This document shows positions 3,888-15,112 of a stretch of DNA of 17,636 nt, in pieces. Every line of letters starts with the position of its first letter. The first letter of the stretch is position 1. Position numbers and translations under genes: made by a program. The notes under the pieces were generated by a model. That model saw nothing but the letters and a program-made list of their open reading frames with translations, was not told where the DNA came from and did not search any database. The DNA comes from Thioclava sp. GXIMD4216. Lineage in GTDB: Bacteria > Pseudomonadota > Alphaproteobacteria > Rhodobacterales > Rhodobacteraceae. The DNA is taken from NCBI RefSeq assembly GCF_037949285.1, contig NZ_CP149931.1:1-17636 (forward strand), read 5' to 3'.

Positions 3888-4146
3888 ACTGGCGGGACTG
3901 AAGGCCCGCCCGAAAGATACAACCGTCGAAGAGGTTCGGCGCGTGGACGAAGTGGGAGAGGCGAGGGGGTTCCTTGATCGAACGCCACGAAAGAAGCCCG
4001 GCCGCAAGCCGAGCCCGCGCACTTGGCAACTCCACCCAAAGGTTTTCCCGAAGGTAGGGGAAGCCATAGCGGCTGAGGCGGAACGGCTTGGGATCACTCA
4101 GGGGCAACTAATCGAGCGGCTTTGGGAACAATACACAGCGGAGTGA
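3871..4146 (+). CDS. small ParB-like partition partner (ribbon-helix-helix type)
   Basis: 91-aa basic protein whose start codon lies 17 bp inside parA. Residues 1-37 are polar and probably flexible. A basic block at 38-50 (RTPRKKPGRKPSPR) follows, then a strand-helix-helix pattern from about 52 to 88 (WQLHP, a helix from VFPKVGEAIAAEAERLG, and a helix from TQGQLIERLWEQY). That pattern resembles ribbon-helix-helix centromere-binding proteins of type Ib partition operons. I infer that it binds the CCGGT array, loads ParA and represses the operon. The flexible N terminus would be the ParA-contacting part, as in ParG-like proteins. Sequence alone does not prove the fold. Confidence 0.7.
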   Translation: MSDSNRLAGLKARPKDTTVEEVRRVDEVGEARGFLDRTPRKKPGRKPSPRTWQLHPKVFPKVGEAIAAEAERLGITQGQLIERLWEQYTAE

Positions 4147-4249
4147 CTACAGCCGATCCTTCGTACGAGCATCGAAAGCACCAAGGAATACTCCGGCACT
4201 GAACAGTGCAGAAGCCCTGGGAATCGCGCGCAAGTACCATCTCTGAGCC

Positions 4250-4421
4250 ATGCAGACCTACCTTGAAAAAACGCCAACCTACGAAGCACGTCGCCCGGTT
4301 TTACCGGATGGCCTGGTTCTCGTTCTCGAACCAGGCCGTCACGGCTCTGATCACACTGGAAACGGCCAAGCGTCACCGTGGGCATTGGGTGGAGCCTCAG
4401 CAACTAGCGATGTTTGAATAG
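4250..4421 (+). pseudogene. decayed WGR-domain gene (frameshift and internal deletion)
   Basis: A start at ATG 4250 reads MQTYLEKT, a plausible WGR-protein N terminus, then meets six A residues (4266-4271). The match continues in another frame as KHVARFYRMAW, and later ALITLETAKRHRGHWVEPQQLAMFE up to the TAG at 4419-4421. Small WGR proteins on alphaproteobacterial plasmids have RFYR near the start and an AKRRRGY-like end, but between them should come the WGR motif itself, about 30-40 residues that are missing here. I read this as a remnant with a shift at the poly-A run and a deletion. The alternative is that it is not a gene at all. Confidence 0.45.
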
Positions 4422-4445
4422 TCTTATTGGCCCAGTTTACATATG

Positions 4446-4488
4446 AGCGGGATGTCTATATGTCCTTAGGACATATAGACATCCCGCT
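4446..4488. promoter_or_regulatory. palindrome P1, candidate AbiEi operator 1
   Basis: A perfect palindrome with 21-bp arms (4446-4466 and 4468-4488) around a central T. The centre, TATGTCCTTAGGACATA, is shared with palindrome P2 apart from the middle base. It also contains ATGTC twice per arm, in direct repeat. A promoter-like TTTACA (4436-4441), 17-bp spacer, TATGTC (4459-4464) overlaps it. AbiEi repressors bind inverted repeats in their own promoters, which is the likely role. Confidence 0.75.
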
Positions 4489-4526
4489 TCACCCAATCAC
4501 GCTTCTGTTCGACTCAGAAATCTCTC

Positions 4527-4556
4527 TTGACATAACGCAATCCTTACCCCTATGTC
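4527..4556 (+). promoter_or_regulatory. promoter of the abiEi-abiEii-RM operon
   Basis: TTGACA at 4527-4532 is a perfect -35; TATGTC (4551-4556, 18-bp spacer) is the candidate -10 and lies inside palindrome P2. Repressor bound to P2 would block it directly. Confidence 0.55.
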
Positions 4557-4581
4557 CTAAGGACATAGGGGTAAGGATTGC
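4537..4581. promoter_or_regulatory. palindrome P2, candidate AbiEi operator 2 and leader hairpin
   Basis: A perfect palindrome with 22-bp arms (4537-4558 and 4560-4581) around a central A. It covers the presumed -10, the transcription start region and the ribosome binding site (AAGGA, 4573-4577) of abiEi, and ends 2 bp before ATG 4584. Outside the shared 17-bp core its arms are unrelated in sequence to those of P1, yet both are perfectly self-complementary. If transcribed from an upstream start it would form a 22-bp hairpin hiding the ribosome binding site. Confidence 0.78.
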
Positions 4582-4583
4582 AG

Positions 4584-5465
4584 ATGAATTTCACAGACGG
4601 CGTAGAAAAAGTTATAAATGACAATGACTTGCCCGTCATAACCTTCTACGAATTCTTCGTTCTAGGCTACCATCTGTTTCACAAAAAAGCGCTGAACGGC
4701 GAGCCGCTGAAGCGCCTTCCGCACGACTGGGACCAGACACGCGCCAAAAATGCGTTGCGACGCCTTGAGGCGCGGAAGGCGCTTGTCATGGACTCTGACT
4801 TCCGCTCCGGCGTCTGGCGTGTCACGCAATCAACGAGAGCTGGTTCGGCGGAAGAGGCCGCCTGCATCGCTGATCCCTTCGCCTACGTCTCCCACCTGTC
4901 TGCCATGCAGCGCTATGGCCTTACTGATCGCAGTCCACAGGCACTGCATCTGACAACCCCCAAACGACCGCTTTGGAATGCGCTCCGCGATGAGCGCGTT
5001 CATAAAGACCTGCCCGATCTGGACCAGATCGAAAGGCCTGTTCTGAACAGGGCCGGCTTCAAGGACACGATCCGTCGCCGCCCGGTCGTAGTGCATGTAT
5101 CAAGCCACCCGTGGACACCGGCCCCCGTCAGTGGTGAGGAGACGCGGATCACTTCGATTGGCCAAACCTTCGCTGACATGCTTGCTGAACCGCAGCTTTG
5201 TGGGGGCATGCGCCATGTTCTCGATGTCTGGGAAAATGAGGCGGATCAGTGGGTGCCCGAGATTATTGCTGCAATTGATGTCCTGGACAGCAAGATCGCC
5301 AAAGTCCGCGCGGGCTATATTCTATCTGAAGTCATGGACATAGATGATCCGGCGCTGCACAACTGGGAGAAGTTTGCTCAACGGGGCGGATCGCGCAAAC
5401 TCGACCCTGACGCCGAGTACGCCCCTGAATTCTCAGAACGCTGGATGATTTCAATAAATGTCTGA
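4584..5465 (+). CDS. abiEi: AbiEi-family antitoxin / transcriptional repressor (type IV TA)
   Basis: Antitoxin of an AbiE type IV toxin-antitoxin pair. In studied examples AbiEi does not bind its toxin; it opposes toxin activity and represses the operon by binding inverted repeats in the promoter. The assignment rests on length (293 aa from ATG 4584; a TTG at 4578 is in frame), on the following AbiEii gene and on the operator palindromes. The N terminus (about residues 10-80, with ITFYEFFVLGYHLF and the RAKNALRRLEARKALV helix) looks like a winged helix. The following FAYVSHLSAMQRYGLTDRSP block (about 98-117) is characteristic of this COG5340-like family. It overlaps abiEii by 8 bp. Its ribosome binding site lies in the right arm of palindrome P2. 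Confidence 0.82.
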   Translation: MNFTDGVEKVINDNDLPVITFYEFFVLGYHLFHKKALNGEPLKRLPHDWDQTRAKNALRRLEARKALVMDSDFRSGVWRVTQSTRAGSAEEAACIADPFAYVSHLSAMQRYGLTDRSPQALHLTTPKRPLWNALRDERVHKDLPDLDQIERPVLNRAGFKDTIRRRPVVVHVSSHPWTPAPVSGEETRITSIGQTFADMLAEPQLCGGMRHVLDVWENEADQWVPEIIAAIDVLDSKIAKVRAGYILSEVMDIDDPALHNWEKFAQRGGSRKLDPDAEYAPEFSERWMISINV

Positions 5466-6381
5466 TAACGACCCCCACGCGCAAGATAGCAAATTCGACA
5501 TCGTCGATGTCGATGTTCGTGCATGGGTCGAAACCGCGCGCGCAGACCCAACACTCTATCGAGATCGCCAAGTAACGGAGATTGTCTTAGGGGCAATCGG
5601 CTTAGCCCCCTCACTGTCGAAAACGCTCGTCTTGAAGGGCGGGGCGGTCATGGCCCTAGCTTTCAAGAGCAATCGGGTCACCGGGGATGTGGACTTCACC
5701 TCCATGGCAGAACCTGATGACCTGACAGAGAAAATCACCACCGAGCTGAATGAGATGCTGCCCCGCACCGCGATCAAGCTCGGCTACCCTGATCTTCTTT
5801 GTCGGGTTCAATCAGTGAAGAAGATGCCACGCGCCCAGAATTTCGAGGATCACGAATTCCCCGCGCTCCGGGTCCGCATTGGATCCGCCAAGCGCGGCAC
5901 AGGTGAAGAGGTCCGGCTGGCGGACGGCAAGGCAAGTCGAGTTCTTGATGTCGAGATCAGCTTCCGCGATCAGGTCTATGCCTTTCAGGAGCTGAACCTG
6001 CACGGGGCCGGTGTGGCGGTACGCGCGTTCACTATCCATGAGCTCGTCGCCGAAAAATTCCGTGCTCTGCTTCAGCAAACCATACGCAAGCGCAACCGGC
6101 GACAGGACGTCTACGACATCGCATTTCTGATTGGCAAAAATGATTTCAGCGATGCTGACAGAACAGCCATCCTAACCACGTTGATCGAGAAATGCCGCAG
6201 CCGTGGGATCGAAGCCAATCGAGAATCCATGGATGACCCGGAAATCAAACAACGCGCCCAGGCTGAATGGGAAACGCTCGCCCTCGAAATCGGTGATTTA
6301 CCGCCCTTTGAAGAGCGCTTCTCTCTCATGCACGATCTCTATGTTTCGCTGCCATGGGGCGGCACCAAGAAAGACCATTAA
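5458..6381 (+). CDS. abiEii: AbiEii/AbiGii-family nucleotidyltransferase toxin
   Basis: Toxin of the pair: a DNA polymerase beta-like nucleotidyltransferase that in studied cases acts in the cytoplasm, is bacteriostatic and gives phage abortive infection. The family signature is complete. LKGGAVMAL (59-67) is the Gly-rich motif, followed by GDVDF (76-80) with the two metal-binding aspartates D77 and D79. RVLDVEISF (161-169) supplies the third acidic residue. HELVAEKFRALL (194-205) carries the catalytic-type Lys200, with RRQDVYDIAFLI (214-225) after it. The 307-aa length is normal for the family. Nothing suggests loss of function. It starts within abiEi and is followed after only 3 nt by the RM gene, so all three should be made from one message. 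Confidence 0.9.
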   Translation: MSDNDPHAQDSKFDIVDVDVRAWVETARADPTLYRDRQVTEIVLGAIGLAPSLSKTLVLKGGAVMALAFKSNRVTGDVDFTSMAEPDDLTEKITTELNEMLPRTAIKLGYPDLLCRVQSVKKMPRAQNFEDHEFPALRVRIGSAKRGTGEEVRLADGKASRVLDVEISFRDQVYAFQELNLHGAGVAVRAFTIHELVAEKFRALLQQTIRKRNRRQDVYDIAFLIGKNDFSDADRTAILTTLIEKCRSRGIEANRESMDDPEIKQRAQAEWETLALEIGDLPPFEERFSLMHDLYVSLPWGGTKKDH

Positions 6382-6384
6382 TTT

Positions 6385-9300
6385 ATGAATTTGTTCAACC
6401 GTAAGACCCTGAAGCGCCACATCAAAGACGATCCAATCCCAGCAGATCATCTGGCTGCGCTGGAAGCCTGGGCGGAGCTGATAAGCTCGGGCCGGATTGA
6501 ACGCCTAAAAGAGACCGCCCTGCACGGGCAGTTCGCCTCCAAGATCGTTGAAGGTGTTCTCGGTTACCACGGTCCAGCTGGCGGGGCAGACTACAACGTC
6601 TCAACCGAACAAAATATTCTGCGCGGCAGCGTCGATCTGGCGCTTGGCCGCTTTGGCGGCAAGACACCTGACATCGTGGCACCATTCGAGCTGAAGGGCG
6701 CGGATACCCGCGACCTCGATGCAATCATGCCGGGCCGGAACAAGAGCCCCGTTCAACAGGCGTGGGAATACGCCATGAACGCACGCGGCGTAAAATGGGT
6801 TTTGGTCTCGAACATGATCGAGCTGCGCTTCTACGGCTTCGGGGAAGGCACCTCGGCCTATGAGGAATTCCGCCTCGACCAGCTGACAGACCCCGAAGAA
6901 TACGCGCGCTTCATGCTGCTCCTGTCAGCGGAGAATCTGCTGTCTGGCCGCACGGCTGATCTGCTGAAAGAAAGCCGCCGCGAAGACAAGGACATCACCG
7001 ACAGCCTGTATCAGGACTACAAGGACCTGCGCCTCAAGCTCCTGAGCGCGGTCCAAAAAGCCGATGCCTCGATCGCCCCCCTCGATGCGATTGCCATCGC
7101 GCAGAAGATCCTCGATCGGGTGCTGTTCATCGCCTTTGCCGAAGATACCGGCCTGCTGCCAAACAACACACTGGAAAACGCCTTCATCGCGCGTGACCCT
7201 TACAACCCTCGCCCCATCTGGGACAATTTCAAAGGCCTATTCCGTGCCATCGACTTGGGTAGCGATGAGCTGAAGATCCCAAGATACAATGGCGGCCTGT
7301 TCCGCGAAGACGCGGTGATCAACGGGCTAATCATATCCGATGACGTCTGTGAAGGGTTCAAGACCTTAGGCGGCTATGACTTCGCATCCGAAGTCTCGGT
7401 CACCGTCCTAGGCCACATTTTTGAACAGTCCATCGCGGACGTGGAACGCCTGCAGGCGATCGCGCGCGGTGAAGAAGAAGAGCCCGAGAAAACCACCGGC
7501 ACAAGCGGACGACGCAAGCGTGACGGTGTCGTCTATACTCCTGATTACATTGCACGCTTCATCGTGGCCGAGACTCTTGGCACGCACCTGAGAGAAATTT
7601 TTGAGGACACCTTACGCGCTCATGCCAAGAAGGGCGCGGATGTCAGCGACTACGAAAACATCTCCTGGCGGAAAAAGTCGGCCGAACTGGAAGCCTGGCA
7701 GGCCTATCGCGAGCGCCTGAGAACCTTGCGCATTGTTGATCCCGCCTGTGGTTCAGGTGTGTTCCTGATCATGGCCTTCGACTTCATGAAGGCCGAACTG
7801 ACCCGCGTGAACGACAAGATCAAAGACTTGCTTCCGAAAGCTGAATATTTTGGGGACCTACTCGACTATGTCCCAGATAGTGAAATTCTGACCGGCAATC
7901 TCTTCGGCGTAGACGTGAACGAAGAAAGCATCGAGATCACCAAACTGTCGCTTTGGATCAAGACCGCCCGACGTGGCAAGGTTCTCGACAGCCTCTCGGG
8001 CAGTATCCGCGTCGGCGATAGCCTGATCGAAGACAGCAACTTCGCCTATCTCGACCACGCCTTCACTTGGGAAACGGCCTTCCCCGGTGTCTTTGCCGAA
8101 GGCGGTTTCGACGTGGTCCTGGGCAACCCGCCCTATGTGCGGATGGAATTCCTGAAGCTGCTGAAACCCTATCTGGAAAAGCGCTATGAGGTCGTGTCCG
8201 ATCGGGCCGATCTCTACTGCTATTTCTACGAACGCGGCCTGCGCCTGCTGAAACCGGGCGGGCGCTTGGGCTACATTTCCTCGAACACTTTTTTCAAGAC
8301 TGGCTCGGGCAAGCCCCTGCGCGAATACCTTTTGAAAGAGGCCACTATCGAAAGCGTGGTCGATTTTGGCGACCTGCAAGTCTTCGAGGGCGTAACCACC
8401 TATCCGGCGATCCTGATCATGAAACGCGGGGCCGCGCCCAAAGGGCATGAGCTGCGCTTTTGGAAGGTGGATGCCCTGCCGGAAAACAACTTCTTGGCCA
8501 CTTGGGAAGCTGCTGCCGGCCCATATCCACAGACGGCCTTGGGTGCCGGATCGTGGGAACTGGAAAACCCTGCCCTGCGCGCCCTGCGCGACAAGATCAG
8601 GACAGGCAGAAAAACTCTAAAGGACGTTTACGGATCACCGCTCTACGGTATCAAAACAGGCCTGAACGCTGCCTTTGTGATCGACAACGCCACCAAGGAG
8701 CGCCTCTGCGCCCAGGACCCAAAGTCTGCCGATCTTCTGCATCCTTTCCTCGAAGGCAAAGACCTGAAACGCTGGCGGGCCGAACCGCGCGGCCTGTGGC
8801 TGATCTACATCCCTAAAAACCGGATCAACATTGACGATTATCCAGCCATTCGGGATTGGCTACTTCCATTCAAGGATCAGCTGGAAAAGCGGGCCACCAA
8901 GCAGGAATGGTTCGAGCTCCAACAGGCGCAGGAGGCCTACTTGCCTTACTTTGAGGGCGCAAAGGTGCTCTACCCTGAATTTTGTAATGTGCCACAGTTC
9001 CAGTTGGAAGACGGACATTTCACGAACAACAAATGCTACTTTATCGGTTCAGACGACGCCTGGCTCGCAGCTTTCCTGAACTCCAAAGTGGCTTGGTTCA
9101 CGATCACCGGAAACAGTGTTCCTGTTCGTGGTGGCTTCCACCAAATGCACTCTCAGTTTGTCGAGCAGGCCGTGATACCAAAAATCTCGGCTGAGCAGAA
9201 AACCGACCTTGAGGGCCTAACCAACAGTTGCCAGACAGCGGCCCAAAAACGCCTGGCACTCCAAACCGCTCTCACGCGCCGCCTACCAGACCTCTGCCCG

Positions 9301-9573
9301 CCTGGACGCGAACCCAAGCTCACCAACAAGCTCAAGGAATGGTGGACCCTGCCCGACTTCGCCACCTTCCGCGCCGAGGTGAAGAAGGTGTTCAAGGCCG
9401 ACATCCCGCTTGCTGATCGCTCCGACTGGGAGGATTGGATCAACCGCGACCGCGCTGAGATCGCCCGCCTGACCGCCGAAATCGCCCAGGCCGAAGCCCG
9501 GATCGGCAGCATCGTCTATGACCTGTTCGACCTGACCGAAGACGAAATCGCGCTGTTGGAGGCGGCCATATGA
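6385..9573 (+). CDS. single-chain type IIG restriction-modification enzyme (Eco57I-like)
   Basis: A 1062-aa fusion of nuclease, adenine methyltransferase and target-recognition domain. Asp84 (GSVDLAL), Glu102 and Lys104 (FELKG) and QQAWEYA (124-130) form a PD-(D/E)XK nuclease with a QxxxY motif. A helical connector fills about 165-375. Methyltransferase motif X (GVVYTPDYIARFIV, 381-394), motif I DPACGSG (452-458) and motif IV NPPY (581-584) are intact; NPPY indicates N6-adenine methylation. The part from about 700 to 960 resembles TaqI-like specificity domains, ending in a helical tail. Such enzymes cut unmethylated DNA at a distance from an asymmetric site and need no partner. The recognition site cannot be predicted from the sequence. 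It follows abiEii by 3 nt with no promoter of its own in view, so AbiEi probably controls its expression. A short ATG frame overlaps its stop. Confidence 0.9.
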   Translation: MNLFNRKTLKRHIKDDPIPADHLAALEAWAELISSGRIERLKETALHGQFASKIVEGVLGYHGPAGGADYNVSTEQNILRGSVDLALGRFGGKTPDIVAPFELKGADTRDLDAIMPGRNKSPVQQAWEYAMNARGVKWVLVSNMIELRFYGFGEGTSAYEEFRLDQLTDPEEYARFMLLLSAENLLSGRTADLLKESRREDKDITDSLYQDYKDLRLKLLSAVQKADASIAPLDAIAIAQKILDRVLFIAFAEDTGLLPNNTLENAFIARDPYNPRPIWDNFKGLFRAIDLGSDELKIPRYNGGLFREDAVINGLIISDDVCEGFKTLGGYDFASEVSVTVLGHIFEQSIADVERLQAIARGEEEEPEKTTGTSGRRKRDGVVYTPDYIARFIVAETLGTHLREIFEDTLRAHAKKGADVSDYENISWRKKSAELEAWQAYRERLRTLRIVDPACGSGVFLIMAFDFMKAELTRVNDKIKDLLPKAEYFGDLLDYVPDSEILTGNLFGVDVNEESIEITKLSLWIKTARRGKVLDSLSGSIRVGDSLIEDSNFAYLDHAFTWETAFPGVFAEGGFDVVLGNPPYVRMEFLKLLKPYLEKRYEVVSDRADLYCYFYERGLRLLKPGGRLGYISSNTFFKTGSGKPLREYLLKEATIESVVDFGDLQVFEGVTTYPAILIMKRGAAPKGHELRFWKVDALPENNFLATWEAAAGPYPQTALGAGSWELENPALRALRDKIRTGRKTLKDVYGSPLYGIKTGLNAAFVIDNATKERLCAQDPKSADLLHPFLEGKDLKRWRAEPRGLWLIYIPKNRINIDDYPAIRDWLLPFKDQLEKRATKQEWFELQQAQEAYLPYFEGAKVLYPEFCNVPQFQLEDGHFTNNKCYFIGSDDAWLAAFLNSKVAWFTITGNSVPVRGGFHQMHSQFVEQAVIPKISAEQKTDLEGLTNSCQTAAQKRLALQTALTRRLPDLCPPGREPKLTNKLKEWWTLPDFATFRAEVKKVFKADIPLADRSDWEDWINRDRAEIARLTAEIAQAEARIGSIVYDLFDLTEDEIALLEAAI

Positions 9574-9623
9574 CCGATACACCAGCACCAAGACCTTTGG
9601 GTTCAAAGCTTTTCGAACGGTAA
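9570..9623 (+). pseudogene. stub of a possible fourth operon gene
   Basis: ATG 9570 overlaps the RM stop as ATGA, the classic coupling arrangement, and the frame reads MTDTPAPRPLGSKLFER before a TAA at 9621-9623. The peptide is too short to identify. Since the resolvase/transposon segment starts only about 40 bp further on, it is likely the 5' end of a gene that was cut off when that segment arrived. It may instead be a chance overlap. Confidence 0.4.
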
Positions 9624-9665
9624 TGCAGACGACCAGGACACGTAACTTGCCTCGCCCGGCGGGCG

Positions 9666-10238
9666 TCAAGGTTTCTGAAGACTGGGTTGAATACGCTTCT
9701 CAACCCGCCGCACCGTCCGCTCGCTGACCTCGAAGAGCCGCGCGATCTCGGAGATTGCGCGTTGTTCCTCGTCACGCATCCGGCGCACCTCGGCCTTCTG
9801 GGCAAGCGACAGGGCAGGGGGCCTACCTCCTACCCGGCCGCGCTTGCGGGCCGCCGCCAGCCCCTCCATGGTTCGCTCGGCAATCCGCTCGCGTTCGAAC
9901 TGCGAGATGGATGCGAATACATGGAATGTCAGGCGACCTGCCGGGGTCGTGGTGTCGATGTCCTCGGCCAGGGACCGGAACCCAGCACCTTTCGCACGGA
10001 TCGCCGCGACGATCTCCAGAAGGTCTTTCAGGGACCGGGCCAGACGGTCATATTTGGTGACTGTCACAACGTCGCCCTCGCGGAGCTGATCCAGCATCCG
10101 ATCCAGCTCGGTCCGCGCGCGCTTCGATCCACTGATCCGGTCCGCGAAAATCCTCCCGGCTCCGGCGGCCGAAAGGGCGTCAGCTTGTGAATCAAGGCTC
10201 TGGTCGCCAGTGCTGACGCGGGCATATCCGATGATCAT
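9666..10238 (-). CDS. serine resolvase/invertase (TnpR-like)
   Basis: A 190-aa site-specific recombinase that resolves cointegrates or plasmid dimers at an adjacent res site. MIIGYARVSTGDQSL at the N terminus holds catalytic Ser9; the central part has YDRLARSLKDLL and the Arg-rich FERERIAERTMEGLAAAR. The C terminus (about 150-183, with AISEIARLFEVSERTVRRVEK) is the helix-turn-helix that binds res. Length and motifs are complete, so it should be active. It points away from the IS. No Tn3-type transposase is present in the window, so it is either the remnant of a Tn3-family transposon or a plasmid multimer-resolution gene. Confidence 0.9.
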   Translation of the reverse strand: MIIGYARVSTGDQSLDSQADALSAAGAGRIFADRISGSKRARTELDRMLDQLREGDVVTVTKYDRLARSLKDLLEIVAAIRAKGAGFRSLAEDIDTTTPAGRLTFHVFASISQFERERIAERTMEGLAAARKRGRVGGRPPALSLAQKAEVRRMRDEEQRAISEIARLFEVSERTVRRVEKRIQPSLQKP

Positions 10239-12086: not shown

Positions 12087-13268
12087 CTAGCTAATCTGTT
12101 CTGCTGCAGGGCCAAAGAATTCATAGTGGATACGCGCAGCCGGAACATTGGCAGCCTGAAGACCGCCGACTATGGCTTTCATAAAACCGACTGGACCGCA
12201 AACGAAGTAGTCCGTGGAGCCCGTATCACTAATACCGGCCAGCCAGCTTACGTCAATCTGACCAGGGCGGACACCCGCGTTCAGATCCGCATCTGTGGGT
12301 TGCTCATAAAAGACGTAACTTTCGGTCGCTCCGAGGCTCAGCGCGTTCCGCATTGCATGGCGCTCGCGATCGCGGGCCGCGTGCACGGACACGATACGTC
12401 GATTTCCCCCACCATAACTTTCCAACATCGACACCATAGGCGTAAGACCGACGCCGCCGGAGAGAAGAACAACATCATGCTTACCGGCAGGATCGAGAAA
12501 GAATTCGCCCGCAGGAGCGGAGACGTCAATTTCGTATCCGACGCCCACGCTGTCGTGAAGCCAGTTGGAAATCCGGCCTCCTGGCTCACGCTTAACGGTA
12601 ATACGGTAGGTCTTGCCATTTGGAGCGGAGGAAATCGAATAGTTCCGACGAAACTCTTCTCCCTCTTCCGGGGCGAAGCGGAAACTCAAATACTGGCCGG
12701 GGCGATGGCGCAAAACGGATCCTCCGTCAACCGGGCGCAGGACGAAGGATGTAATCTCTGGGGTTTCCGGGGACTTCTCGATGACCTCAAAACGTCGCCA
12801 TCCTCGCCACCCTCCTTCGGCCGCCGCTGAAACTGAGTAGATTTCCTCTTCCCGCTCGATCAGCGTATCCGCAAGGAACCAGTAGGCTTCGCCCCATGCC
12901 TCAAGGATAGCAGGAGTGGCAGCTTCTCCAAGAACCTCGGAGACAGCGCCTAGCAAAGCTTTGGCAACGTGGGGATAGTGTTCCGGCAAGATTTGTAGGC
13001 CCACGTGTTTCTGCGCAATACGTTCCAGCGCAGATACCAAGACGCCCGGGTTTCGGATGTGGGTGGCATAGGCAATTAGCGCTCCTGCCAGCGCCTTGTG
13101 CTGTGGAGAGTTCCCGTGCTGATGGGACATGTTGAAAAGCGCCCTGATTTCGGGGGCGGCAAGCAGCCGTTTGTACATGCTGGGCACGATCTGATCTGCG
13201 TGAGCAGCCACGACCGGCGCTGTTGCTTCGATGATTTCCAGAGTTGCCTCGGTGAGGGGCTTGGCCAT
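12087..13268 (-). CDS. hmp: flavohemoprotein, nitric oxide dioxygenase
   Basis: Converts nitric oxide plus oxygen to nitrate using NAD(P)H, FAD and heme in the cytoplasm. The 393-aa length and domain order are canonical. The globin domain (about 1-140) has proximal His88 in ERIAQKHVGLQI and the conserved MYKRLL and FNMSHQ segments. The FAD domain (about 153-260) has RNYSISSAP at 208-216. The NAD domain has GGVGLTPM (271-278), CGPVGFM (357-363) and the C-terminal HYEFFGP (381-387). ATG is preceded by AGGAG. It is transcribed divergently from an NsrR-type regulator across two operators, so NO should induce it. The nearby res/IS segment suggests that the module reached this plasmid by transposition, but no right-hand transposon end was found. 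Confidence 0.95.
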   Translation of the reverse strand: MAKPLTEATLEIIEATAPVVAAHADQIVPSMYKRLLAAPEIRALFNMSHQHGNSPQHKALAGALIAYATHIRNPGVLVSALERIAQKHVGLQILPEHYPHVAKALLGAVSEVLGEAATPAILEAWGEAYWFLADTLIEREEEIYSVSAAAEGGWRGWRRFEVIEKSPETPEITSFVLRPVDGGSVLRHRPGQYLSFRFAPEEGEEFRRNYSISSAPNGKTYRITVKREPGGRISNWLHDSVGVGYEIDVSAPAGEFFLDPAGKHDVVLLSGGVGLTPMVSMLESYGGGNRRIVSVHAARDRERHAMRNALSLGATESYVFYEQPTDADLNAGVRPGQIDVSWLAGISDTGSTDYFVCGPVGFMKAIVGGLQAANVPAARIHYEFFGPAAEQIS

Positions 13269-13279
13269 GCCGTTCTCCT

Positions 13280-13314
13280 GCCTTATAGGTTCCGATCATT
13301 GGAATCTATAAGGC
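13280..13314. promoter_or_regulatory. NsrR-type operator 1
   Basis: GCCTTATAGGTTCC (13280-13293) and GGAATCTATAAGGC (13301-13314) are inverted copies with a single mismatch, separated by GATCATT. The inner half-sites are TTCC-N7-GGAA. It begins 12 bp upstream of the hmp start codon. Binding here would block hmp transcription. Confidence 0.7.
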
Positions 13315-13332
13315 GTAATAAAATGATTCCAA
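13305..13332 (-). promoter_or_regulatory. candidate hmp promoter overlapping both operators
   Basis: On the minus strand TTGGAA (13332-13327), 16-bp spacer, TATAGA (13310-13305). The -10 falls inside operator 1 and the -35 inside operator 2. Confidence 0.45.
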
Positions 13333-13342
13333 CTGACGGAAT
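13326..13342. promoter_or_regulatory. NsrR-type operator 2
   Basis: ATTCC-AACTGAC-GGAAT: the same TTCC-N7-GGAA architecture as operator 1, 37 bp further on. The repeat of half-site and spacer makes one shared dimeric regulator likely, and the neighbouring Rrf2 protein is the obvious candidate. Confidence 0.6.
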
Positions 13343-13415
13343 GTATTTAACAGTGCGTCATACTGTCGCATTTTTTTTCGCGAAGACTCCGAGCGGAACG
13401 GAAAGGGCACAACTG

Positions 13416-13841
13416 ATGAGGCTAAATGACACCACAGACCTGGCGCTACGAATTATGATCTATGCCGCGTCGGTCCATCCGCGGCGCTTCAACATTGATC
13501 AGATCGTGCAGACCTATGCTCTTCCGCGCAGTACAATCATGAAAGTAGTCAGTTCCCTGACCCAAGGAGCTCTGCTTTCCGCGCAGCGAGGACGTGGAGG
13601 CGGTTTATACCTCGCGCGTGAAGCCTCAGAAATCTCTGTCGGCGACATTATTCAACATATGGAAACGGATTTCGACCTGGTGGAATGCATGCGTACCGGT
13701 AACCGCTGCACGATTACCGAAAGCTGCAAACTGATCCCACCGTTAATCGCCGCGCGAAAGGCATTCATCGAAACGATTGGCCGATATTCTGTTGCTGATG
13801 TCGCACTTGCTCCAAGCGATTTCGGTATGGATACAGCCTAG
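13416..13841 (+). CDS. nsrR: NsrR-type Rrf2-family nitric-oxide-sensing repressor
   Basis: 141-aa Rrf2 protein that carries an iron-sulfur cluster and releases DNA when the cluster reacts with NO. The frame is open far upstream, but ATG 13416 gives the family start (MRLNDTTDLALRIMIYAA) after GAAAGGG. A winged helix occupies about 5-70 (LPRSTIMKVVSSL, then the Gly-rich wing RGRGGGLYLAR). Cys91, Cys98 and Cys104 (C-x6-C-x5-C) are the cluster ligands in the expected place. IscR-like alternatives are less likely given the hmp neighbour and the absence of iron-sulfur assembly genes. The two operators upstream suggest that it regulates itself and hmp. Confidence 0.85.
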   Translation: MRLNDTTDLALRIMIYAASVHPRRFNIDQIVQTYALPRSTIMKVVSSLTQGALLSAQRGRGGGLYLAREASEISVGDIIQHMETDFDLVECMRTGNRCTITESCKLIPPLIAARKAFIETIGRYSVADVALAPSDFGMDTA

Positions 13842-13864: not shown

Positions 13865-15112
13865 ATGTCGGTGGTCAGGTCAGTGTGCTCTCTGGCACCA
13901 GCTGCTCCAGCGCTTGGTACCAGGCAGCGCCAACATTTCTTTCTAGAACGGATAGGTTCGAGCTTGCACATTCTGAAGTCATTAGGTCCCGCCGTTGCTC
14001 GCGTCTCGGGCATTGAAGCGTTTCGCGCAGGGCTGGGGGCATTGATTGGCCTCGGGCTGACCGGAATTTTTCTTCTTTCTCCCCAGATTGACATGGAACT
14101 GGGTCTCTACCTCGTTGCGCCTTTCGGGGCATCGTCAGTATTGCTGTTCGCCGTTCCCAACAGCCCGCTTGCACAGCCATGGTCGGCGATTGTCGGGAAC
14201 ACGGTTGCGGCGATTGTCGGCGTCGCCGTCTGTCTGACTGTTTCCGATCCAACCTTGCGGATTGCTTTGGCAGTGGGGCTCGCTATTACCGCAACCATTC
14301 TGTGTCGGGCAGTCCATCCTCCTGCGGGTGCGGTCGCTATGACTGCAGCCATGTCGCCCGACGCCGTCACGCATCTTGGCTTCTGGTTTGCTCTCACCCC
14401 AATTGCAATGGGCACATCGGCACTCGTAGTTCTAGCCGTCATCTATGCGCGCCTGACTGGACGTCACTACCCGTTCAGGCAGTTTGATGATCTCAGCAAG
14501 CACGGAACTGATGATCGTAACCCCACGGAACGCCTGGGACTGTCAGAGGACGAACTGACCAATATACTTGAGCGTTACAGCCAATCGTTCAACTTGGGCG
14601 TCGAAGACCTCGCACGGCTAATCGGTGCAGCAGAACTACAAGCCGCCGCGCATTCCTCAGGACCTTTGTCAGCTCAGGACATCATGTCCCGAAACCTCGT
14701 CACCGTCGGTCCGGGCACATCCCTCGGTGATATTGCCGACCTCTTCAGACAGCACCGGTTCACCTCTCTTCCAGTGATTGAAGCCGACAAGACATTCTTG
14801 GGGGTGATTTTTCAAATGCACCTCATCACTCAAGCCCGTAGTGACGCGATGCGCCTTGATAGAGGATACGGGGCAGCCCTGCGACGGCTGCTGGATCGCG
14901 AACGCGAAAAACCAATAGTGGCAGGGGACATTATGAGCGTGGCAGGGCCCCGAGCAACAACCAACACGCCGATTGGGGCTCTTCTGCCAATGATGGCAGA
15001 CGGAGACACTGACGCCGTCCCCGTCATTGAGTACGGAAAAATCGTGGGCATCGTCACACGCACGGATTTGATCGCTGCTCTGGCGCGCAGCGCTGCACGC
15101 ACTAACCAGTGA
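13865..15112 (+). CDS. HPP-family membrane protein with two CBS domains
   Basis: The N-terminal half (about 55-200) has several hydrophobic segments and the family signatures SPLAQPWSAIVGN (100-112) and HPPAGAVAMTAA (151-162). It is an inner-membrane HPP domain. The cytoplasmic C-terminal half has two CBS motifs (about 275-325, starting DIMSRNLVTV, and about 355-407, starting DIMSVAGPRA and ending GIVTRTDLIAAL), usually nucleotide-sensing. Members of the HPP family have been linked to nitrite transport in plastids and cyanobacteria; the hmp-nsrR context fits a nitrogen-oxide role here, but the substrate is inferred. It starts 23 bp after nsrR and is probably co-transcribed. A TTG at 13964 after GATAGG is an alternative start that would remove a poorly conserved leader. 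Confidence 0.85.
   Translation: MSVVRSVCSLAPAAPALGTRQRQHFFLERIGSSLHILKSLGPAVARVSGIEAFRAGLGALIGLGLTGIFLLSPQIDMELGLYLVAPFGASSVLLFAVPNSPLAQPWSAIVGNTVAAIVGVAVCLTVSDPTLRIALAVGLAITATILCRAVHPPAGAVAMTAAMSPDAVTHLGFWFALTPIAMGTSALVVLAVIYARLTGRHYPFRQFDDLSKHGTDDRNPTERLGLSEDELTNILERYSQSFNLGVEDLARLIGAAELQAAAHSSGPLSAQDIMSRNLVTVGPGTSLGDIADLFRQHRFTSLPVIEADKTFLGVIFQMHLITQARSDAMRLDRGYGAALRRLLDREREKPIVAGDIMSVAGPRATTNTPIGALLPMMADGDTDAVPVIEYGKIVGIVTRTDLIAALARSAARTNQ

Follow-up and report, generated by a model that had tools for sequence, protein, structure and literature searches.

An AbiE pair, a type IIG gene and their operators

The locus analysed here, from Thioclava sp. GXIMD4216 (Rhodobacteraceae), consists of an AbiE toxin-antitoxin (TA) pair directly followed by a type IIG restriction-modification (RM) gene. 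It lies on contig C6 (NZ_CP149931.1), one of 6 contigs of a 3.84-Mb genome; the entire contig of 17,636 bp was analysed and is called the window. The genes abiEi (4584..5465), abiEii (5458..6381) and the IIG gene (6385..9573) are all on the + strand, with an overlap of 8 nt (−8) between the first two and a gap of 3 nt (+3) between the second and third. This bears out the order and spacing given by a sequence-only reading of the window, which had set the bounds of the locus at 4446, the start of a first palindrome, and 9623, 50 nt beyond the IIG stop codon. A terminator-like hairpin on the + strand was found at neither gene junction, and Rfam gave no match at gathering score. The window encodes a MobV relaxase, RPA-type replication and a ParA-family protein and is therefore a plasmid or most of one; none of five lengths tested gave an exact terminal repeat. 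The composite operon is real, recurrent and a mosaic of TA and RM genes. Each component is of a kind already known, and the new part is the combination of AbiE with a IIG gene. No such operon was found in titles and abstract openings among the literature matches listed, which does not show its absence from print; the excerpts of PMC10221251 and PMC11541004 name AbiE loci, but not this combination.

In type IV TA systems the antitoxin neutralises the toxin without a direct complex, and the first two genes are predicted to form such a system of the AbiE family; family profiles, adjacency, gene order, nucleotidyltransferase motifs and promoter repeats all point to this. AbiEi (293 aa), the antitoxin and putative autorepressor, was assigned by PADLOC (E=1.5e-117) only, with no match in Pfam and NCBIfam. 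AbiEii (307 aa), the predicted nucleotidyltransferase-type toxin, was recognised by Pfam (AbiEii, PF08843, E=8.7e-28) and by PADLOC (9.6e-113). A PDB sequence search with either protein gave no matches. The best AlphaFold2 model of AbiEi, built from 13 rows, had a pLDDT of 82 (the other four 55-73), with residues 267-293 poorly modelled. Its top Foldseek matches, with modest TM-scores of 0.37-0.42 on the query, were AbiEi of S. agalactiae (6y8q, E 1.2e-4) and Rv2827c of M. tuberculosis (1zel, E 4.6e-4), in line with a predicted winged-helix domain followed by a C-terminal antitoxin domain. The AbiEii model (12 rows, pLDDT 86) matched the nucleotidyltransferase toxins MenT3 and MenT4 (E 2.3e-9 to 1.6e-5; query TM-scores 0.43-0.59). 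Measured against motifs I-IV as published (PMC3985639), the residues K60, G61, G62, R73, D77, D79, K200, D217 and D220 are invariant in an alignment of 14 rows, and Q216 takes the place of the published K/R in motif IV. In a locus outside this alignment (L012; L numbers denote compared loci), motif I reads KSG instead of KGG, which may affect toxicity.

The third gene codes for 1062 aa with matches to Pfam Eco57I, N6_Mtase and MmeI_Mtase and to PADLOC REase_MTase_IIG (3.4e-141 over residues 38-1061); MmeI_hel scored just below the cut-off. A PD..ELK-type motif, DPACGSG and NPPY are present, and all 12 PDB sequence matches are DNA methylases or RM enzymes, including RM.BsaXI. The predicted build is that of a single-chain type IIG enzyme with nuclease, spacer, N6-adenine methylase and specificity parts, the nuclease being recognised by its motif only. 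Over residues 1-700, all 50-aa bins of nine relatives are at least 86% identical to the window enzyme. Six of the nine share no more than 22-42% with it around residues 850-950, and in some the dip starts at about residue 750. This pattern is expected of swapped target-recognition sequences, and the specificity region of the IIG gene (8632..9234, + strand) is exchanged among loci.

Two perfect inverted repeats with 1-nt centres precede abiEi: P1 (4446..4488; 43 bp, arms of 21 nt) and P2 (4537..4581; 45 bp, arms of 22 nt). Both were found by a repeat search and are putative AbiEi operators. Together they span −138 to −3 relative to the abiEi start, and P2 covers a putative −10 element and the leader. 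The core that they share, TATGTCCTNAGGACATA, is present two times in the window (200 shuffles gave an expectation of 0) and has no further copy anywhere in the genome. A putative −35 element, TTGACA (4527..4532, + strand), is separated by 18 nt from a downstream TATGTC within P2. The arrangement is conserved in a set of 26 loci that includes near relatives: TTGAC lies upstream of the P2 core in 24, P2 has its centre at −25 relative to the start codon in 23 and P1 at −117 to −130 in 23. P2 is centred at −30 in L021 and at −29 in L022 and is missing from L025, whose sole core is at −82; L034 and L082 have no P1.

Repression by AbiEi through P1 and P2 may be inferred by analogy. AbiEi of S. agalactiae acts as a repressor at a 23-3-23 repeat pair that lies over its own promoter (PMC3985639), and Rv2827c at two repeat pairs at −1 to −131 (PMC7319586). 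With the S. agalactiae system the window shares the order of AbiEi and AbiEii, the predicted AbiEi fold, the nucleotidyltransferase motifs and inverted repeats at the promoter; it differs in the geometry and sequence of the operators (22-1-22 with core GTCCTNAGGAC, in two sets) and in having an RM enzyme as third gene. The Rv2827c-Rv2826c locus is alike in its two inverted-repeat sets reaching from the start codon to about −131, and the folds predicted here match 1zel and MenT4. It is unlike in that its four half-sites are graded in affinity and negatively cooperative (PMC7319586), and no RM gene is mentioned in the excerpts of that paper.

The outer operator arms are nearly perfectly symmetric, yet their sequence is free to change. 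In a position-by-position comparison of the palindromes of 17 loci, the inner 8 nt per arm were symmetric at 272 of 272 positions and the outer 14 nt at 468 of 476. Yet between P1 and P2 of the same locus the outer arms were identical at 83 of 238 positions only, which argues against a specific reading of their sequence by AbiEi, and between two loci agreement went down to 0 (P1) or 7% (P2). In pair-count alignments (18 rows, 17 distinct) covariation scores of 0.586 for P2 and 0.736 for P1 were matched by none of 500 shuffles, and slid controls stayed at or below 0.14; the number of further pair types in P1 was not unusual (87 of 500 shuffles). The paired cells contain two G-U cells, both in the outermost pair of P1, and are otherwise Watson-Crick, so that symmetry at the level of DNA fits better than an RNA hairpin as cause of the palindromes. 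Among nine distant AbiE loci (36-59% AbiEi identity; the set includes L103-L110, and L024 and L107 are the same contig), eight, among them a Xanthomonas and a Thiodictyon plasmid, have a palindrome in which the core GTCCTNAGGAC is flanked by unrelated arms; the ninth, from Ferrovibrio, has a long palindrome with a different core. Selection on DNA structure and template-switch correction are candidates for what keeps the outer arms symmetric. The maintenance of long perfect palindromes is a separate question raised by these arms.

Recurrence and exchange of modules

All 10 full-length loci in the comparison have the −8/+3 spacing, with median dN/dS values of 0.066 for AbiEi, 0.086 for AbiEii and 0.214 for IIG. 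Among 21 AbiEi loci in genome contigs, eight have a full-length IIG gene behind AbiEii, two enter IIG before the contig ends, three retain just the beginning of it (108, 44 and 31 aligned residues) and eight are without it; in one of the last eight, L016, abiEii breaks off 38 nt before the contig ends. DNA similarity to positions 4400-9700 was found in 34 plasmid records. Fifteen of them contain 80% or more of this stretch in a single place, and 12 of the 15 are Pseudosulfitobacter plasmids that share one match. Across the order (390 genomes), 8 genomes carry IIG (E<=1e-60), 6 carry AbiEii (E<=1e-20) and 3 carry both, always adjacent (hypergeometric probability 1.1e-4; 2.7e-3 when the window genome is left out). 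Across the family (394 genomes), IIG was found in 11. One of these matches is partial, with 33%, and of the other ten genomes AbiE adjoins IIG in G000, G073 and G630. Viral contigs gave one IIG copy, not linked to AbiE.

The end of abiEii marks the junction. AbiEii sequences without IIG behind them end with LPW and a stop in six of nine rows (L014, L020, L023, L024, L026, L027) and have unrelated tails in three (L019, L021, L022), and the five rows that are followed by IIG or a stub of it continue for seven codons beyond LPW. In the window these seven codons, the stop and the following 3 nt form the IIG leader (6358..6384, + strand), which resembles, with a 3-nt gap, the IIG leader of two loci (L051, L065) where a BrnT-BrnA pair takes the place of AbiE. 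From this comparison the last sense codon of abiEii seems to be the point at which the AbiE pair was joined to the IIG leader. Modules have been exchanged, since L017 (AbiEi 73% identical) has the junction and an IIG stub, while the junction is absent from L014 (82%).

A survey of IIG genes of at least 60% identity revealed a variety of genes in front of them. The enzyme of L051 is 96% identical to that of the window; BrnT of this locus was recognised by Pfam (3.4e-27), and its antitoxin fell below the Pfam cut-off. In six loci the IIG gene stands behind an XRE-type helix-turn-helix gene and a small open reading frame (ORF); the XRE call was made by Pfam for L053, by tblastn for L052, L055, L066 and L067 and by eye for L068. 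No palindrome was found ahead of these XRE genes in the six loci at the settings used. In all five small ORFs tested, hydropathy over 19-residue windows exceeds 1.6, if only just in L067, and such a hydrophobic product could be an effector. In other loci the IIG gene follows ParA genes (L054, and L032 with a CopG-type gene between), AbiLi/AbiLii-like genes (L030), an Hsp70-family gene and a short ORF (L031) or unidentified ORFs (L028, L029), of which that of L028 was tested in Pfam without a match. L064 and L077 have no + strand ORF of at least 60 aa within 1 kb ahead of IIG. The window enzyme resembles Eco57I/MmeI-like type IIG enzymes, including those with an upstream regulator, in domain models and motifs, and its XRE-linked relatives show the regulator-first layout; in the window, however, the first gene encodes a TA antitoxin and not a C-type protein, and a small XRE-type controller ahead of IIG is absent from the window.

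In a tree of 30 IIG rows, with 13 of 27 inner branches open, all 14 AbiE-linked rows fall in one clade of 17 (100/99), together with both BrnT-BrnA rows and the unlinked L064. Three XRE-linked rows and L032 form the sister group (fork support 85/87), and three further XRE-linked rows lie near the base. On the best tree the AbiE label requires 4 changes, 1 of which is forced by starred branches. The simplest reading would be a single entry of AbiE into the slot, with one or more later replacements by BrnT-BrnA; the opposite course is possible. Altogether, the tree and the survey suggest that the control slot ahead of IIG is exchangeable between an XRE gene with a small ORF, AbiE and BrnT-BrnA.

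A recombinase-WGR hotspot on plasmids

The locus lies next to a remnant of a WGR-domain gene (4250..4421, + strand), in which about 27 codons are missing and the WGR part is out of the ATG frame; in tblastn the WGR protein of L051, an intact copy recognised by Pfam as WGR, matched window positions 4263-4418 with 48% over its residues 8-86. In many relatives an intact WGR gene follows a tyrosine recombinase gene upstream of the locus, and the window keeps only the WGR remnant of this pair. Nine further plasmid regions around the recombinase (L086-L094) were surveyed. Next in line are a BrnT gene with a short partner in L086, L087 and L089, a BrnA-like gene with no BrnT annotated in L088 and L091, a cytosine methylase in L093, a glycosyltransferase in L090, a transposase in L092 and about 3 kb without an annotated gene in L094. 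Beyond the TA genes, on the other strand, lie type I RM genes in L086 and L089 (a fragment in the latter) and a type ISP RM gene in L088. Behind the AbiE pair of L026 lies a gene with a GHKL-type ATPase domain. As seen in L051, L065, L086-L089, L091, L093 and the window, the recombinase and WGR genes mark a plasmid hotspot for TA pairs and several RM types. The pneumococcal tvr locus is comparable in that TA-like genes and a tyrosine recombinase are part of an RM locus with specificity exchange (PMC6265443). The tvr locus (tvrAT, tvrR) differs in its type I RM system, recombinase-driven shuffling and other families, and its phd-doc-like pair appears to suppress excision.

Elsewhere in the window, a gene for an NO-inducible flavohaemoprotein (12087-13841, − strand) overlaps an opposite-strand ORF with an Rrf2 domain, and a gene with HPP and CBS domains (13865-15112) lies beside it.

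Control of the restriction gene

How, then, is the IIG enzyme made? We favour, and think it probable, that a fusion at the last sense codon of abiEii placed the IIG leader behind an autoregulated AbiE pair of predicted type IV, so that read-through from the AbiE promoter, together with translational coupling over a short range, would yield the enzyme. As in the AbiE systems studied, AbiEi on P1 and P2 would keep the whole transcript, and with it IIG, low and self-adjusted. The two activities would then be independent stabilising or defence functions, AbiEii through its toxicity when the plasmid is lost or a phage infects the cell, and IIG through DNA restriction. A role of AbiEi as governor or co-regulator of IIG, as envisaged in the sequence-only reading, is a fair and plausible assumption because the slot of the sister IIG genes holds an XRE-type regulator, which is C-protein-like by position only.

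Several observations weigh against this reading. A consensus sigma-70 scan of positions 4100-9750 found no promoter, although such a scan can miss alphaproteobacterial promoters; the promoter call therefore rests on the conserved −35-like box. Of the earlier claim of one promoter with twin operators, the two palindromes stand, and the result of the scan speaks against the single promoter. In 385 genomes of the class, IIG occurs in 5 (E<=1e-100) and AbiEi in 6 (E<=1e-15), and the overlap is the window's own genome only. Many IIG genes have no AbiE and many AbiE pairs no IIG, for example in sphingomonads. The suggested neighbourhood check thus turned out both ways: RM homologues do adjoin AbiE, yet homologous IIG genes are often found elsewhere. 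Furthermore, in the ten loci dS of AbiEi and AbiEii is correlated (Spearman 0.41, p 0.005), but that of AbiEii and IIG is not (−0.16, p 0.29; IIG dS includes the swapped specificity region), from which we infer modules that are reshuffled rather than a tightly co-evolving unit.

A wider proposal concerns the slot ahead of the type IIG enzymes of this clade, with XRE and a small hydrophobic ORF, AbiEi-AbiEii or BrnT-BrnA as exchangeable front ends led by an autorepressor, a TA antitoxin acting as RM controller and the symmetry of the arms kept by DNA structure or self-templated repair. We put this forward tentatively, as somewhat doubtful.

The IIG gene could also be passive cargo, AbiE and IIG having hitchhiked independently into a hotspot where their adjacency has no regulatory effect beyond leaky read-through. 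The varied TA and RM genes found after the recombinase(-WGR) genes, including an AbiE pair with an MmeI-like enzyme, are what this would predict, as are the uncorrelated dS values and the deletion scar in L084, where WGR is directly followed by the last ~34 IIG codons. The MmeI-like enzyme is that of L018 (8960-11866), where it takes the place of IIG and is preceded by an AbiE pair and a stub of IIG. Yet chance adjacency is hard to reconcile with the constant +3 spacing and single junction across the linked loci compared, with a common IIG leader of ~24 nt that seems too short to hold a promoter of its own, or with the regulator-first layout of the XRE-linked IIG loci. We consider hitchhiking unlikely, but it is the most serious of the competing explanations.

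A promoter of its own in the 3′ part of abiEii could serve the IIG gene, and a site of this kind might escape a consensus scan in alphaproteobacteria. We regard this as improbable, as the scan gave no promoter-like site there and the BrnT-BrnA-linked copies have unrelated DNA ahead of the leader.

The sequence-only reading had further proposed a back-up, in which loss or inhibition of either activity could trigger the AbiEii toxin. In the form of a guard, AbiEii would be restrained as long as the IIG enzyme is present and freed once the enzyme is lost or inhibited. CreTA follows a guard logic like that of PrrC and PARIS. Such RM guardians are documented for PrrC and PARIS (PMC12707154), and the tight linkage of AbiE and IIG is compatible with the idea, but AbiE is intact, motif residues included, with IIG broken or lost in L013, L017, L018 and L082, eight of the 21 contig loci (one of them cut) have AbiE without IIG, and AbiEi is already the expected neutraliser of AbiEii, so that a guard is very improbable and the back-up claim disfavoured. 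Comparison of the loci, which bears on this indirectly, gave no sign of toxin release on enzyme loss. L082 is a complete Phaeobacter plasmid with a copy of IS1247 inside the IIG gene; the other three are metagenome-assembled contigs, in which an assembly error is possible. AbiEii of L013 and L082 has a two-residue insertion at motifs III/IV with the motif residues kept, and the same insertion is present in L033 and L083, both IIG-linked. In L034 transposase genes interrupt abiEii and end IIG, and in L025 abiEii is shortened.

L051 offers a natural swap, with BrnT-BrnA instead of AbiE ahead of a 96%-identical enzyme. If AbiEi indeed sets the level of the enzyme, antitoxins would be usable as RM controllers, TA pairs would be interchangeable front ends for plasmid restriction genes, and one regulator would link two addiction or defence functions.

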